Notes under the pieces: generated by a model
The model's input: the letters and a program-made list of their open reading frames with translations, nothing else
Database searches by the model: none
What the model was told of the DNA's origin: nothing
Shown: positions 8,428-21,281 of the stretch, in pieces
Layout: the number at the start of each line of letters is the position of its first letter
Numbering within the stretch: the first letter of the stretch is position 1
Position numbers and translations under genes: made by a program
Source of the DNA: Koleobacter methoxysyntrophicus
GTDB taxonomy: Bacteria > Bacillota > Thermosediminibacteria > Koleobacterales > Koleobacteraceae
Length of the DNA: 64,000 bases
Direction: 5' to 3'
Assembly: GCF_017301615.1 (NCBI RefSeq)
Contig: NZ_CP059066.1
Span: 1,595,001-1,659,000, forward strand

Positions 8428-8620
8428 TATAACAAAACCACCCGTTAAAAAAACTTTCTTAAAATTTACAATTCGTGTTTTTTCGCCAGAATCTTGCAGT
8501 AAAAATATGATTTTTTTGTTAAGTATAAGAAGGTAAAGGATAAAGAAAATAGAATATAAAGCAATAAAAAGGCTAATATTTTAAATAACCAAAATATCAA
8601 TCTAAATGGAGGATGTGATT

Positions 8621-8962
8621 TTGAAGGTAGTTTTTTACGGGGATAAAGAACGAAAATTGCTTTTGGAAAAAGAGTTGAAGAGAATAACAGAAATAATTAA
8701 AAGGCTTGATATAAAAAAAGCTGTGCTTTTTGGTTCCTGTGTAAAAGGAGATATAGGGAAAAATTCTGATATCGACCTGTTGATAATTAAAGATACAGAG
8801 AAGCGGTTTTTAGACAGAATTGATGAAATAATACGGATTATTGATCCGAAAGTTGCTGTTGATATTCTTGTATACACACCAAATGAAATTGAAGAACTTT
8901 TAAAAGTCAATTCTTTCATAAAAGAAATCTTAAAAGAGGGGAGAGTAATACATGAAAGCTGA
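8621..8962 (+). CDS. MNT-type minimal nucleotidyltransferase
   Basis: Small polymerase-beta-fold nucleotidyltransferase. The motif LFGSCVKGDIGKNSDIDLLI supplies the GS and the DxD metal-binding aspartates. A GGAGG at 8608-8612 favours the TTG start at 8621 over the earlier in-frame ATG 8606, which overlaps the binding site itself. It overlaps the following HEPN gene by 11 bp. MNT-HEPN pairs are widely regarded as toxin-antitoxin modules in which MNT can modify the HEPN partner, but for this subtype the activity is unproven. Confidence 0.82.
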   Translation: MKVVFYGDKERKLLLEKELKRITEIIKRLDIKKAVLFGSCVKGDIGKNSDIDLLIIKDTEKRFLDRIDEIIRIIDPKVAVDILVYTPNEIEELLKVNSFIKEILKEGRVIHES

Positions 8963-9362
8963 GCCGTTGCATGAGGGAAAACGGTGGATGACTCAGGCCG
9001 AATATGATTTAAAGGATGCTGAATTTACCTTTAAAGGGAAAAGATATAATCTAACGTGTTTTCTAGCCCAACAATCGGCAGAAAAGGCTTTAAAAGCATT
9101 TCTTTATTCTAAAGGGGCAGAACAGGTATGGGGACATAGTGTAGCTGAATTATGTGAAGAAGCTATTAAAATTGATGAAATATTTAAAAAACTAAAATCT
9201 GAAGCAGCTCCATTGGATAAGTTTTATATACCGACACGGTACCCAAATGGTTTACCGGGGGGTATACCTGCAGAAGCCTTTGATAAATATGATGCTGAAA
9301 GGGGACTAGAAATGGCCAAGCGAGTTATAAATTTTATTAAAGAAAAGTTGGGAGAGGAGTAA
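8952..9362 (+). CDS. HEPN-domain protein, partner of the MNT gene
   Basis: An all-helical HEPN protein of 136 aa. The hallmark stretch LTCFLAQQSAEKALKAFL is present, followed by GHSVAEL and a C-terminal TRYPNGLPGG...YDAERGLEMAKRVINFI. I do not see a clear Rx4-6H RNase motif, so it may be the non-nuclease subtype. It overlaps the MNT gene, implying co-translation, and is followed after 5 bp by the U32 peptidase gene, which may be co-transcribed. Confidence 0.82.
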   Translation: MKAEPLHEGKRWMTQAEYDLKDAEFTFKGKRYNLTCFLAQQSAEKALKAFLYSKGAEQVWGHSVAELCEEAIKIDEIFKKLKSEAAPLDKFYIPTRYPNGLPGGIPAEAFDKYDAERGLEMAKRVINFIKEKLGEE

Positions 9363-15170: not shown

Positions 15171-15314
15171 TGCATATCTACTAAGCTGATAGTTCAAGAA
15201 AAAACTGATAGTTTAAGAAAAAAATTGAAAGAGATTGTCGTTTGGTATAGAATAAAAATACCAATAATATATTTATCATTACATCTGTTATTACATCTTT
15301 TAGGGGTGGCTGCT

Positions 15315-16502
15315 ATGAATGATAATGAAGAAACGGGGATAAAGAATTTAAACGAATATCTTGCTGTTATTCAAATTGTTAGCCTTCTGCTGTTACTTAT
15401 AATTAGCAGCTCTCTACTACCCGGTGAAGCAAACAAGTTGCCCGACAATTTCAAGATTATAACTATCGGTATATGGGTAATAGGTTTATTCTTTATTTAT
15501 ATAATTTGGATTTTCTTTTTAGGGAGAAGAAAAAGAAGAATAAACACCAAACCTAGCAGACTAGATATATTATTGTCAATTATTTATTTTTTTTTGATTA
15601 CAGCAATCATATACAAAACTGGAGCACATGAGAGCCCTTACAAAAATATATTTTTACTTTTAGTGGTAATGCACACATTAAAATTCGGAACGGTATTTGG
15701 TGCAGTATCAGTTATATTCAGTTCCATCGGTATTATGTTAAATGACCTAATAATATTAAAACGGATTTCAAACAATCCTTACCTTGAAGCTGATATAGTT
15801 TTAATAGGTGTCCTTATTATAACTAACTGGCTGCTTGGGAGTTTTATTAAAATGATAGAGGATGATGCCGTTCATAGGGCGCGTTTGGAAACAATTGCGG
15901 AAATGGCAGGGGAAGTTGCTCACGAAATAAGGAACCCCCTGGTTGCTGTTAAGGGTTTTATTCAATTGGAAGGCTTAAAAGAAGAATCTTCCCTTGACAA
16001 AGGGGTAATTAAGCTGCTTTTGCGCGAAATTCAAAGGATTGAGGAAATAATTGCAGAATTTCTAAAACTCGGTGAAGCTTATGAACTAAAAGTAACAGAA
16101 ATAGATTTGAGGGTACTTTTTAAAAGAATTAAATTAATGATGAAAACTCAGTTAGGGTTCAAAAACATATTTATAGAAATAAAAGTGGATGAACATGTGC
16201 CGTTGATTAAAGGGGATGTTATGCTTTTAAGACAGGTATTTGTTAATATCGTCAAAAAAGCCTTTGAAACTGTTGGTAACGGCGGGAAAGTGGAGATTAG
16301 CGCAAGTTACGTAAATAATGAAGTCAAAGTTGAAATAAGTGCCAATAGAAAAACCAGAGGGCCTTTTTTACATGCCCAAAAAGAAAAACAGGCCATTGGG
16401 TTGACAATAAATGAAATGATTATAGAAAAACATAAAGGGCGTATTGAAGTATTAACGAAATCAGATGGAGGCCTGCAATTTACGGTTTTTTTGCCTGCTT
16501 AG
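15315..16502 (+). CDS. Histidine-kinase-like membrane protein with degenerate ATPase domain
   Basis: About 395 aa: a membrane sensor of roughly 5-6 segments (1-185) followed by HisKA (AHEIRNPLVAVKGF, H203) and a HATPase_c-like end. Start ATG 15315 is supported by GGGGTGG upstream and by alignment (NEYLAV...) with the related sensor of the c-di-GMP enzyme at 19581. The shared sensor core is TGAHES-YKN...YLEADIV...TNWLLGSFIK. In the ATPase region the usual N-box NA is VKKA, and the DxGxGI loop is replaced by SANRKTRGP, so ATP binding may be lost while the phosphoacceptor histidine remains. It may act as a phosphotransferase or a regulator without kinase activity. It stands first in the agr-like locus. 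Confidence 0.8.
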   Translation: MNDNEETGIKNLNEYLAVIQIVSLLLLLIISSSLLPGEANKLPDNFKIITIGIWVIGLFFIYIIWIFFLGRRKRRINTKPSRLDILLSIIYFFLITAIIYKTGAHESPYKNIFLLLVVMHTLKFGTVFGAVSVIFSSIGIMLNDLIILKRISNNPYLEADIVLIGVLIITNWLLGSFIKMIEDDAVHRARLETIAEMAGEVAHEIRNPLVAVKGFIQLEGLKEESSLDKGVIKLLLREIQRIEEIIAEFLKLGEAYELKVTEIDLRVLFKRIKLMMKTQLGFKNIFIEIKVDEHVPLIKGDVMLLRQVFVNIVKKAFETVGNGGKVEISASYVNNEVKVEISANRKTRGPFLHAQKEKQAIGLTINEMIIEKHKGRIEVLTKSDGGLQFTVFLPA

Positions 16503-16846
16503 GTTGAGTAATTTTGAAAAAAGTCTTAAAAGTTTTTTAAAAGCCTAAGCAGGAAAAAAATTTTTTATGTTGAAATTAAAAATAAAAATGCTGAAAATGG
16601 TGCAGAAACCAGAACTTGGCTTGGGGTGATGTGTATGATAAATGTGCCCTGGTATACCGTAATGTTGAGAGCAATTCCTGAAGTAATTGGGCTTATATTG
16701 TTATGCCTTGCGATTATTAATGAAAATGTTGAAAGTAAAAGGAAAAGACTTTTAAACGTCACTATTATAACAATTTTTAGTACATTTACGCTTAAAATGC
16801 TTCCGATAAGATTCGGCATAAATACCCTTTTTTTGATAATATTAGA

Positions 16847-16867
16847 TTCGATATCAGTAGCGTTGCA
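16847..16867 (+). repeat. Left target duplication and IS terminal inverted repeat
   Basis: TTCGATA (16847-16853) is the left target-site copy. The IS end TCAGTAGCGTTGCA (16854-16867) matches the other end in inverted orientation over 14 bp. A further TGTCAAG block occurs at the same inward offset on both ends, so the imperfect inverted repeat is about 38 bp. Confidence 0.92.
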
Positions 16868-18455
16868 CAAAAATTTTAAGACGGTGTCAAGCATAAAAAT
16901 GATAAATCATGGTTATTACTTTATATTCTAAATATGTTATATTTTTACAGTTGCTTTTCTTCCCTGCGGTTAAAGGAGCAATCTCTTAAAGGTAGCCCTT
17001 TCCACATTTTAACATTAAGTATTCTTTTAGAGTATTACCGGATCATAAGTTAAATCGTCCAAATGATCCGCCTCGCCTGCTATCACCTGCCTTAGGGTTT
17101 CTTGAAATATCCTTTCATGGTCTATTTTCCGCCGTCCTTTGGAGCTTCGTTTAGGCTTACGATAAAGCTTCTGGACAAAATAAGGAAATGGTTCGTAAAG
17201 GCAGGTTTTAAGAAGTCTTTGAATCTGCAGTAACGGCCCTTCATAACCTGTTTTTAGCTTGATTAGCTTCAACATACAATAGGCGATAAGAGCTATGTAG
17301 AGCTGCATTTCTACGGCCTGCTGGCTTAAACTGTAAAAATGTTTAATATACAGATGCTGCTTAATCCACTTGAAGAAAAGCTCGATCTGCCAGCGGTAGC
17401 GGTAGATATCGCCTATTTCTTCCGCAGGCAGTTCAAAGTTGTTCGTAATAATAATGATCGGGTTGCCGTTAAGGTCTTCTGTTTCGATAGACCTTAGGGG
17501 GTGGTGCATCTTTGTCAATCCGTCTTTGCCCAGGATAACGATGCGATCTTTTTTAATGACGCTGCCGGGCTTTACAGGGAGTTCTTTAACTACTTCTACC
17601 AAGGCGTTTTTCTTTAAGCGGCTGGCAAAAAATATTCCTTGTTCGCAGTAATCATCAAACTTTTTATAATCGAGATAACCCCGGTCGAAAACGTTAAAGG
17701 CATCTTTTGATTCAACAACCAGTTCATCCATCTGGGTTTTATCCGCTTTCTTAGCAGGAGTAATTATGGCAGCATCGGGGAGGACCCCTTTTTCAAACAA
17801 CCTCAGTCTTAAGTGTATCTTGATACCGCCTTTGGTTTTCCTAAAACTTGCCCAGCGATAGCGGGTTATACAAAGGCTGATAATCGAGGAATCGATCAGG
17901 TAAAGGTTGCCCAGTTCCTGTCTTATGGGTTTAAACCCTGTTTGGAAACCCACCTGCCGTACAAGATCCTGAAAAAGGGTCTGAACCGTTTCCGGCATCA
18001 TGCTTCTTAATTTGCGAGAAAGCTGGGAAAAGCTAATGGAATCAAGTTTGATTGCTTTGCTGAATTCTCTGTTACAAAGGTTATTGCTGATTTCCCTTAA
18101 TGACCTTAGTTGCTCCAGTTGGGCAAAGACCATTAAAATAATAAATTTAATGGCCGTTAGCTTTTTGACATACTTATCAACTTCTAGTTTTTGCAGCAGT
18201 TGATGAAATTTTTGTGAAAAAATTGGTTCAAACAGTTGATTAAATGTGGAATTTGTGGTATCCTTGCCTTGCATTTTTTATTCTCCTTTATATTAGGGAT
18301 TATGGCAAGGACTACCATATATCCCTATTATAAAGGATTTTTCTTTATTATGCAAGGTTTATATTACCGTTTTACGCATTTGCTAGTTATATCTTTTGTT
18401 TTCTTATTAATCCGTTACTTGACAAATTGAATTTTGCTTTATGCAACGCTACTGA
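16854..18455 (-). mobile_element. IS4-type insertion sequence, about 1.6 kb
   Basis: The element is 1602 bp, bounded by 14-bp perfect (longer imperfect) inverted repeats and flanked by 7-bp direct repeats TTCGATA. It carries one intact transposase gene on the minus strand. Since both ends, the target duplication and the transposase look intact, the insertion is probably recent. A 7-bp duplication is short for classical IS4 but reported for some subgroups of the family. Confidence 0.92.
17027..18274 (-). CDS. IS4-family DDE transposase
   Basis: 415 aa. An N-terminal DUF4372-like region (FHQLLQKLEVDKYVKKLTAI) precedes the DDE core: first Asp in LYLIDSSI, second in NVFDRGYLDYKKF, and Glu in YRYRWQIELFFKWIKQ, the Y-R-E-K signature of IS4 transposases (K in the same helix). 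There are no stops or frameshifts, so it is probably active. It is transcribed against the interrupted host gene. Confidence 0.93.
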   Translation of the reverse strand: MQGKDTTNSTFNQLFEPIFSQKFHQLLQKLEVDKYVKKLTAIKFIILMVFAQLEQLRSLREISNNLCNREFSKAIKLDSISFSQLSRKLRSMMPETVQTLFQDLVRQVGFQTGFKPIRQELGNLYLIDSSIISLCITRYRWASFRKTKGGIKIHLRLRLFEKGVLPDAAIITPAKKADKTQMDELVVESKDAFNVFDRGYLDYKKFDDYCEQGIFFASRLKKNALVEVVKELPVKPGSVIKKDRIVILGKDGLTKMHHPLRSIETEDLNGNPIIIITNNFELPAEEIGDIYRYRWQIELFFKWIKQHLYIKHFYSLSQQAVEMQLYIALIAYCMLKLIKLKTGYEGPLLQIQRLLKTCLYEPFPYFVQKLYRKPKRSSKGRRKIDHERIFQETLRQVIAGEADHLDDLTYDPVIL

Positions 18456-18462
18456 TTCGATA
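18442..18462 (+). repeat. Right IS terminal inverted repeat and target duplication
   Basis: TGCAACGCTACTGA (18442-18455) is the reverse complement of the left IS end. TTCGATA (18456-18462) is the second target-site copy. The host reading frame resumes as D-S-I-Y-L-N across it. Confidence 0.92.
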
Positions 18463-18726
18463 TATCTAAACGTTTTTATGGATATTAATATGTGGAAAGC
18501 AATAACAGGGTTTATTGCTTCCTTAACGATACTTTCCCTCTCAGAATGGTTAACTGTCATTATAGCCGTAAAGATACTAGGAATATCAATGGATATGATT
18601 TTTTCTAATTCCCTTTATTATACTTTATTTGGGATTCCAAGCCTTTTGGCCTTATATCTGTTAGCGTTTTTAAAATTCAGGTATAATCTTAAAAAAGATT
18701 TTTACAAAAGGGCAGGTTAAAAATAA

Positions 18727-19350
18727 ATGGGTATTGAAGAAATTTCTAGAATATTAGCGCTTAAAATTTCTTCAAGGATTTCTTTAAAAAGCGAGGAGCG
18801 GGAAATCATTGAATACGGATTAAAGGTCTTCCTTTCTGAGGTTCTTTCTTTGTCAATATTATTTATAGTGCTGTTCGTAGCGGGTTTAATAAAGACGGGT
18901 ATGAGTATTCTAATTCCAGCAGGAATGCTGCGGAAGTTTTCTGGAGGGGCACACTGCAGTTCCCCTATGTGCTGCACCATATTAGGGGTTATGACTGTTC
19001 CGCTGTTTGCATTTTCGGTTGAAAGGCTGCTAATTTTGGGAGAAAATAAATTACTAGCAGCAGCAGTTTGCTTGAATGTTTTGAGTTTTTTTAACTGTTT
19101 AAAATATGCGCCGGCTGATTCCCCGCAAAAGCCGATTAATGAGGTATCTAAAAAAAGGCTGAAGAGGGGTGCCCTTTTGTTGATTTTAATTGCTTTCTCG
19201 GTTTTAATAGCGGGTTATCTTTTACGTTACATCGATATATCATTCCTGTTAGCAGCATCAGTCGGTTTTTTTTATCAAAGTATTACCCTGACTCCTGCCG
19301 GTTATGGATTTACAGCGTCCATGGACAGGCTAATGCGGAAAATCATATAG
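18727..19350 (+). CDS. agrB: AgrB-like membrane protease of a cyclic-peptide signalling system
   Basis: Polytopic cysteine protease that cuts the C-terminal tail from an AgrD propeptide and forms the thiolactone ring. 207 aa, normal length. The catalytic motif is RKFSGGAHCSSPMCC: His76 and Cys83 have the same seven-residue spacing as the S. aureus pair, and about four membrane segments follow. It starts 6 bp after the interrupted membrane gene and ends 34 bp before the propeptide gene. Insertion of the IS upstream could reduce its expression unless a promoter lies in the IS or in the remaining 3' part of the broken gene. Confidence 0.93.
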   Translation: MGIEEISRILALKISSRISLKSEEREIIEYGLKVFLSEVLSLSILFIVLFVAGLIKTGMSILIPAGMLRKFSGGAHCSSPMCCTILGVMTVPLFAFSVERLLILGENKLLAAAVCLNVLSFFNCLKYAPADSPQKPINEVSKKRLKRGALLLILIAFSVLIAGYLLRYIDISFLLAASVGFFYQSITLTPAGYGFTASMDRLMRKII

Positions 19351-19384
19351 CTCAAAAAATAAGGCTGAAAGGGGGTATATTTAA

Positions 19385-19516
19385 ATGAAAAAACTGATAA
19401 AGCTGGCATTTGTTTTCTTTGCTGCTTTTTTAACTTTGATAGCCCAAATTAACGCCGTATCCGCATGTTCTTTCCTTTGGTACCAGCCTGAACTGCCGAA
19501 CAGCCTGAAAAAATAA
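19385..19516 (+). CDS. agrD: AgrD-like cyclic lactone autoinducer propeptide, 43 aa
   Basis: AAAGGGGG lies upstream of ATG 19385. The propeptide has an N-terminal hydrophobic/amphipathic part (MKKLIKLAFVFFAAFLTLIA), a core VSACSFLW and a tail YQPELPNSLKK. By analogy with Listeria AgrD, where a ring-forming C plus four residues is followed by Y-E-P, the thiolactone ring would be Cys27-Ser-Phe-Leu-Trp31, and YQPELP would be the AgrB recognition tail. It directly follows agrB. Ring boundaries are inferred, not seen. Confidence 0.9.
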   Translation: MKKLIKLAFVFFAAFLTLIAQINAVSACSFLWYQPELPNSLKK

Positions 19517-19525
19517 TACCTCTCT

Positions 19526-19558
19526 ATTAAGAAGGTTGGAAGGCTCAACCTTCTTAAT
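19526..19558 (+). terminator. Hairpin terminator after agrD
   Basis: ATTAAGAAGGTTG and CAACCTTCTTAAT form a perfect 13-bp stem with a 7-base loop just after the agrD stop, followed by ATTTT. It also rules out the upstream in-frame TTG at 19536, inside the stem, as the start of the next gene. Confidence 0.8.
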
Positions 19559-19580
19559 ATTTTACTTTGGGGTGTTTAGC

Positions 19581-21281
19581 TTGAATGAAAAGAGAATGAA
19601 ACGAAACAGCTGTATAAATGAATATATTGCTATAGCAAAAATATTTTGCGCTTTATTAATATCCATAATTCTAATATCATATTTTTTTATAGATAGGCTC
19701 TCAATATTTAACAGTATATGGATGATAATTTCTTTATATATCTTTATCCTTATTTTAATGTTAAGTCTCTGGAATTATTTTCAGAAAAACATAACCGGCT
19801 GCAGTTTTGTGCCCAAGATATTAGATGTTTTTATCTTGCTAATTTTCTTCTTTTCAATAACCTTTATAATATATTTTACAGGTGCCCATGAAAGCAATTA
19901 TAAAAACCTTTACTTCCTTTTAACTATAATATATACCTTAAGGTTTGGTTTGAATTTTGGAATTGCGGTTTCTATGCTCAGCTCCGCAGGTATTGTGTTT
20001 AATGATATTGTACTCCAACCGGCTCTTGAATACAACATCTATTTAGAATCCGATTTGATAACTATAGCCATCCTCTTTTTAACCAGCTGGCTTTTAGGAA
20101 ACTTCATTAAAACCGAGGAAAAACGCCTGCAGCAGCTTGAAAAAATAGCTAATGTCGACGGGCTTACAGGTTTATACAACCATCGTTTTTTCCAGGAGAA
20201 ACTGGATTGGGAAATAAAAAAGTGCGAACGGAACAAAAAGAGCCTTGCACTAATGATGATAGATATAGATTTTTTTAAACTATATAATGACTCTTACGGC
20301 CACTTAAAAGGTGATATCTTATTAAAGGAATTCAGTCAGATTATATTAAGTAATATCAGAAAATGCGATACTGCTGCAAGATACGGCGGTGATGAATTTA
20401 CTGTAATATTCCCGGATCTAGATGGGAAGCAGGCACGGTCCATAGGAGAGCGGCTGCAAAAGACTATCAAGGAAAAATTTAATAAGGATTTTAATTTTAC
20501 GAATAATACCATGTCGGTTTCTATTGGGATAGCCCTATACCCTGAACATGCGGATAATAAAAAGGACTTGATAAAAAAAGCAGATGAAGCCATGTATAAG
20601 GCTAAATATGTTAACAATAAAATCCAGCTGTATTATTCGGTACTGGATGACTTAAAATCAACTATGAATAATTCCGAAATTGAGCTGTTAAATTCAATAA
20701 AAACCCTCATTTCTATAATTAATGCAAAGGATAGGTATACATTCGGTCATTCAGAAAGGGTTGTCTGTTATACAAGGGTTATAGCAGAAGCCTTGGGTTT
20801 AAAAGGAAAAGATTTAAAAACACTGATATATGGAGCTTATCTGCATGATATAGGGAAGATTGAGATAGATAGAGAAATTTTAAATAAGCAGGGGGCATTA
20901 ACTGAGGATGAGTGGGAAATTATAAAAAAACATCCTAATTGGGGGGCTGACATAATTAAGCCCATATCTTCCCTTGTAGATTCCCTGCCTGTAATATTGT
21001 ACCATCATGAAAAAATGGACGGGACGGGCTATCCTTTTGGTTTAAAAGGTAGAGAGATTCCTTTATCTGCAAGAATATTAGCGGTTGCCGATAGTTTTGA
21101 TGCCATGACCTCTGATAGACCTTATAAAAAAGCAATGTCTTTAAAAGAAGCAATAAAAGAATTGGAGAGGGACTGTAATACCCACTTTGATTCAAAGATT
21201 GTCAGGGCTTTTGTTCAGGTAATCGATAAATATAAAAACGTAGACGAAATTTTGGATGATTTAAGTATTAAGGATTTCTAA
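19581..21281 (+). CDS. Membrane diguanylate cyclase / HD-GYP phosphodiesterase
   Basis: Makes and/or degrades c-di-GMP at the membrane; 566 aa. GGGGTG precedes TTG 19581. Residues 1-200 form a polytopic sensor resembling that of the kinase-like protein at 15315 (TGAHES-YKN, LRFG-NFG, YLESDLI, TSWLLGNFIK). Then a GGDEF domain with intact active site G269-F273 and an inhibitory RxxD site (R260-D263), then an HD-GYP domain with HD at 422-423 and HHEKMDGTGYP ending at 485. Both catalytic sites look complete. Its place right after agrD and its shared sensor suggest that the peptide signal, or the same stimulus, is converted to c-di-GMP changes. Confidence 0.92.
   Translation: MNEKRMKRNSCINEYIAIAKIFCALLISIILISYFFIDRLSIFNSIWMIISLYIFILILMLSLWNYFQKNITGCSFVPKILDVFILLIFFFSITFIIYFTGAHESNYKNLYFLLTIIYTLRFGLNFGIAVSMLSSAGIVFNDIVLQPALEYNIYLESDLITIAILFLTSWLLGNFIKTEEKRLQQLEKIANVDGLTGLYNHRFFQEKLDWEIKKCERNKKSLALMMIDIDFFKLYNDSYGHLKGDILLKEFSQIILSNIRKCDTAARYGGDEFTVIFPDLDGKQARSIGERLQKTIKEKFNKDFNFTNNTMSVSIGIALYPEHADNKKDLIKKADEAMYKAKYVNNKIQLYYSVLDDLKSTMNNSEIELLNSIKTLISIINAKDRYTFGHSERVVCYTRVIAEALGLKGKDLKTLIYGAYLHDIGKIEIDREILNKQGALTEDEWEIIKKHPNWGADIIKPISSLVDSLPVILYHHEKMDGTGYPFGLKGREIPLSARILAVADSFDAMTSDRPYKKAMSLKEAIKELERDCNTHFDSKIVRAFVQVIDKYKNVDEILDDLSIKDF

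Follow-up and report, generated by a model that had tools for sequence, protein, structure and literature searches.

The usual view of Agr peptides is that AgrC and AgrA carry their signal to transcription, and we know of no earlier agr system whose output is directly a second messenger. The staphylococcal agrBDCA system resembles the cassette described here in its AgrB protease, its AgrD pre-peptide and an AgrC sensor half that is homologous to a small membrane protein of the cassette, which we call TM160. It differs in that the cassette lacks the AgrC kinase and AgrA, encodes the sensor half as a separate protein and has as its output a c-di-GMP enzyme or a HisKA kinase borne on a membrane module. 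The agr1 locus of Clostridioides difficile is, like the locus studied here, a kinase-less clostridial locus with agrBD and no AgrC-AgrA pair, and its AgrD1 promotes sporulation by a pathway stated to be unknown (PMC11210211); here, in contrast, candidate sensor and output genes sit inside the cassette. The C. difficile agr regulon also ties agr to c-di-GMP turnover, as it affects c-di-GMP genes transcriptionally via AgrA (PMC3754575), whereas here the cassette itself contains the enzyme gene. The open papers searched (subscription journals and bioRxiv lay outside this scope) described links from agr to c-di-GMP at the level of transcription only, and none was found that described an agr cassette containing its own c-di-GMP enzyme or an AgrC sensor half encoded as a separate protein. 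GGDEF plus HD-GYP proteins with MASE, PilS or DUF4118-type sensors show the same fusion of membrane sensor and enzyme, but the gene for the cassette enzyme, unlike theirs, is linked to agrBD and to the gene for a separate AgrC-type sensor.

The window, the whole stretch of DNA that was analysed, comprises 64,000 nucleotides of Koleobacter methoxysyntrophicus and covers 1.595-1.659 Mb of its 3.10-Mb single-contig genome. The initial annotation had placed a kinase-like gene, agrB, agrD and a GGDEF plus HD-GYP gene in this locus, and its gene coordinates were correct. A third membrane gene, TM160 (16626..18720), had been missed; it lies between the kinase gene and agrB and is interrupted by an IS4-family element. 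The features of the locus, in window positions, are:

15225..15253, forward strand: possible promoter (TTGAAA-17-TAGAAT) 5' of the module-kinase gene, from a consensus scan only, in which promoter-like sites in the region were no commoner than in shuffles
15315..16502, forward strand: module-bearing histidine-kinase-like gene (module ~15315-15872; HisKA/HATPase ~15894-16502)
16626..16854, forward strand: 5' part of the interrupted TM160 gene, a putative stand-alone AgrC-type sensor half (empty-site check, profile match)
16855..18454, reverse strand: IS4-family insertion sequence, 1,600 bp (empty-site check)
17027..18274, reverse strand: IS4-family transposase, 415 aa (NF033592, E=1.2e-76)
18464..18720, forward strand: 3' part of TM160, downstream of the second target-duplication copy (empty-site check, profile match)
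18727..19350, forward strand: agrB, 207 aa (PF04647, E=6.5e-32)
19385..19516, forward strand: agrD, 43 aa (TIGR04223, E=1.2e-12)
19525..19559, forward strand: terminator-like hairpin at the junction of agrD and the c-di-GMP enzyme gene (15-bp stem, T-rich tail)
19581..21281, forward strand: module-GGDEF-HD-GYP gene (PF00990, 8e-49; PF13487, 1.5e-40), with module ~19581-20132, GGDEF ~20148-20606 and HD-GYP ~20703-21200

No Rfam families were found in the window. At 8606-9362 two small overlapping ORFs resemble, by eye, a nucleotidyltransferase/HEPN toxin-antitoxin pair.

The element within TM160 has 13-bp terminal inverted repeats (CAGTAGCGTTGCA), is flanked by a perfect 9-bp target duplication (ATTCGATAT) at 16846-16854 and 18455-18463, and has no other full-length copy in the genome. 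Removing it in silico restored an empty site with a single stop-free open frame of 161 aa. TM160 is a five-TM protein of about 161 aa, confidently modelled by AlphaFold as helical (mean pLDDT 88), and its family sits 5' of agrB in most module cassettes and has no entry in Pfam or NCBIfam. At L152, L180, L183, L189, L207, L213 and L215 a tandem TM160 pair lies 5' of agrB, perhaps to recognise two different peptides or to form a heteromeric sensor. A profile search of this genome found no intact paralogue, and the idea of an intact second copy elsewhere was rejected. The absence of a classical AgrC-AgrA pair noted in the initial annotation extends to the genome on the sensor side, where the only AgrC-type sensor sequences are the two IS-split TM160 halves; AgrA is absent from the locus, the single LytTR gene of the genome lying at 2.82 Mb.

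Profile comparison related TM160 to AgrC. The cassette TM160 profile matched fused GHKL kinases at other agrB loci over their N-terminal ~150 residues (hhalign, 1e-26) as well as small proteins encoded 5' of separate two-TM GHKL kinases (hhalign, 3e-32). The fused kinases in turn matched the staphylococcal AgrC model NF046015 colinearly through both the membrane and kinase parts, for example residues 18-423 against 7-394. Searching 398 genomes with the TM160 profile recovered frames of ~150-200 aa or ~440-490 aa, corresponding to stand-alone and AgrC-fused forms, and agrB was also present in 137 of the 146 TM160-positive genomes (hand count). Among 108 stand-alone TM160 genes, 67 adjoined agr genes and a module protein and 32 adjoined agr genes and a split GHKL kinase, an agr association that is partly selected because agrB or module matches guided the choice of stretches. 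None of the 108 had both a module protein and a GHKL kinase nearby, and this mutual exclusion of partners is not affected by the choice of stretches. Our best reading of these similarities is that TM160 is a free-standing AgrC sensor half and a candidate peptide receptor. The link to AgrC rests on profile similarity; no solved structure resembled TM160 or the module, as Foldseek searches of both models against the PDB returned nothing below E=0.001 and profile searches against PDB sequences returned nothing useful.

Agr genes are also carried by phage phiCDHM1 and by Brevibacillus and Paenibacillus phages (PMC3901668). In Brevibacillus phage Davies the membrane proteins gp44 and gp45 (L229, 11244-12648) adjoin the phage AgrB, as TM160 does in the cassette, and match the TM160 profile (E ~1e-6); they may be phage-borne AgrC sensor halves without a kinase. 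None of the four proteins of the Davies agr locus matched the module.

The two proteins flanking agrB and agrD had been described as sharing one membrane module, and this was borne out by BLASTP, which aligned their N-termini over 189 residues at 38% identity (E=2e-28); every motif named in the initial annotation falls inside this alignment in both proteins. The likeness is far beyond chance. In the structure model the module is a six-helix membrane domain of ~185 residues (mean pLDDT 77.5) whose long last helix continues into the output domain. A genome-wide search found it at only two sites, both in the agr locus, and none was found on plasmids. The module showed weak and mostly sub-threshold similarity to DUF4118, 6TM_PilS and MASE1 and, by hhalign, no similarity to TM160 or AgrC; the possibility that it is an AgrC homologue was rejected (hhalign probability below 1%). 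The paired modules of one locus were mutual nearest or near-nearest relatives despite their differing outputs in the window, L071 and L077, and were not so in L073.

The output domains of the two proteins differ in their state of preservation. In the c-di-GMP enzyme of the window the RKCD I-site, RYGGDEF, LHDIGK and HHEKMDGTGYP are all intact. Across 60 module-GGDEF-HD-GYP proteins, HHExxDGxGYP was present in all 60 and HDxGK in 58, with a canonical GGDEF or GGEEF in ~38 and an RxxD I-site in 3. Because the HD-GYP motifs are near-universal and GGDEF is often degenerate, these motifs suggest that c-di-GMP hydrolysis is the likelier conserved activity of the cassette enzymes. The kinase of the window keeps its phospho-accepting His box (AHEIRNP), but its N-box reads NIVKKAFE, with the second Asn lost, and both the G1 box (DxGxG) and the G2 box (GTGLGL, GxGLGL) are lost, so that by its motifs the protein is probably a pseudokinase. 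In a genome of the same family (G001) the module-kinase has also lost the phospho-accepting His, which is replaced by Gln, a second degenerate copy in the family; in other module-kinases the motifs are largely intact. The G001 gene (L078, 7461 onward) lies at a locus with neither agrB nor TM160.

The module profile was searched genome-wide without reference to agr in 149 relatives and 398 genomes of the phylum, agrB was searched separately in the same genome sets, and gene neighbourhoods were read in 140 stretches. Strong module genes (E<=1e-20, away from contig edges) numbered 77. All 56 strong module-GGDEF-HD-GYP genes and 12 of the 20 strong module-kinase genes adjoined agrB/agrD; of the remaining kinases three adjoined TM160 only and five neither TM160 nor agr, and one further module gene was a fragment. 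By hand count of genomes, agrB was present in 59 of 64 genomes with the module versus 108 of 334 others (Fisher p=5e-20). TM160 was found in 49 of the 56 c-di-GMP cassettes, rising to 52 after a closer look. The usual order was TM160, agrB, agrD and module-enzyme; the gaps between these genes had medians of -7, 2 and 59 bp, an operon-like spacing. The two-output layout of the window was also seen in L073, and with another gene order in L071 and L077. Thus the initial proposal that the module and agrBD belong together, with both c-di-GMP and histidine-kinase outputs, was upheld by genome-wide linkage. It had set as a check whether the module is rarely found beside agrB elsewhere, and the outcome was strongly the opposite. 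The arrangement is a recurrent and widespread clostridial cassette and is not peculiar to this genome, where it looks damaged.

Two other neighbourhoods were seen in the same stretches. At L149, L154, L191 and L193 module-kinases of ~420-430 aa (that of L154 being a contig-end fragment) have a conserved context without agr or TM160 and adjoin two genes of ~575-620 aa on the opposite strand. At L173 and L174 a GGDEF-containing protein of 789-800 aa is encoded directly 5' of TM160, a second c-di-GMP gene nearby.

The catalytic residues of AgrB, His76 and Cys83, are invariant in an alignment of cassette AgrBs, and AgrD has the features of its family, namely a leader, a Cys/Ser ring and a PxxP-type C-terminal tail. 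The processing pattern of S. aureus AgrD is known and, together with position in AgrD sequences, was used to place the predicted ring CSFLW (19466-19480), which is followed by the tail YQPELPNSL. Mass spectrometry has confirmed such a lactone pentapeptide for C. thermocellum (PMC5322536). At the junction of agrD and the module gene (loci L060-L199), 30 of 57 cassettes have a terminator-like hairpin, versus 8 of 150 control junctions and 0.55 expected in shuffles, and the stem is often GGTGG...CCACC. Co-expression of agrD and the enzyme is therefore not simple in many cassettes, and the hairpin may determine how much peptide is made relative to enzyme.

The best explanation, to which we give a probability of roughly two in three, is an agr cassette with a split AgrC, in which the signal would run from the peptide through TM160 and the module to c-di-GMP. 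The usual AgrC kinase would have been taken apart, with TM160 encoded alongside AgrB, AgrD and a module-GGDEF-HD-GYP protein, and the module fused alternatively, or in the window additionally, to a HisKA-type kinase. AgrB would trim AgrD and export it as a five-residue thiolactone, here probably CSFLW, which would bind TM160. TM160 and the module would form a membrane complex with the module as partner and output adaptor, and its last helix would relay the change to the cytoplasmic enzyme. This would alter c-di-GMP turnover, most likely the hydrolysis step catalysed by HD-GYP. Against this explanation, the copy in the window lacks an intact TM160, some module-kinases are remote from agr and TM160, TM160 is tied to AgrC by profile similarity, and the hairpins complicate co-expression of agrD and the enzyme gene.

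The initial annotation read the locus as a circuit in which a peptide or shared stimulus acts through the module itself, and of this reading the linkage of module, agrBD and outputs stands. That the module is the receptor, with TM160 an accessory such as a chaperone, an immunity protein or a peptide re-uptake factor, now appears unlikely. It is a membrane domain at the N-terminus, where sensors classically sit, is joined to two kinds of output, and in this strain survives where TM160 is broken; some module-kinases also have no TM160 nearby and, as these lie far from both agr and TM160, the module can work without either. However, the cassettes nearly always carry TM160, to which the homology with the AgrC sensor half belongs, and the module has no AgrC similarity, so the module is not the likeliest receptor; TM160 also partners GHKL kinases where the module is absent, and the module resembles general domains of the 6TM_PilS, MASE1 and DUF4118 type. 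It is more improbable still that the cassette is merely co-transcribed or co-regulated, with an enzyme that answers another stimulus and a peptide that does not control it. Linkage alone does not prove interaction and the hairpins at the agrD-enzyme junction suggest that each side is expressed at its own level, but the linkage is strict across many families and module proteins replace the AgrC kinase half beside the same sensor in a mutually exclusive manner.

For this genome only, and compatibly with the split-AgrC explanation elsewhere, the chance that the locus is a remnant in decay that no longer serves in sensing falls just short of even. TM160 is split with no intact paralogue, the ATP site of the kinase is lost, and the related G001 lacks agrB and TM160 and has a module-kinase without its phospho-accepting His; on the other side, agrB, agrD and all GGDEF and HD-GYP catalytic motifs are intact. 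With TM160 split and the kinase devoid of ATP-binding motifs, the circuit in this strain is probably deaf; the peptide may still be made and is probably not sensed by the TM160 route. The phosphorelay arm of the initial proposal is open to doubt in this strain, whose kinase no longer has the N-box Asn or the G1 and G2 boxes.

More broadly, the data raise an even chance of a modular split AgrC receptor in Clostridia, in which a single free-standing subunit that binds the peptide, TM160, would be combined in evolution with exchangeable membrane partners, namely a GHKL kinase or the module joined to either a HisKA kinase or GGDEF-HD-GYP; the last would give an extracellular peptide one-step control of c-di-GMP without a response regulator or transcription. 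If the split-AgrC explanation is true, the cassette would be, as far as we know, the first agr system to act directly on a second messenger. Annotation pipelines miss TM160 because it has no Pfam or NCBIfam family, which may explain the apparent lack of a receptor in AgrC-less loci. Clostridial agrBD loci without AgrC are many, and the cassette would provide candidates for their receptors; it also suggests a direct line from cell-to-cell signalling to c-di-GMP.
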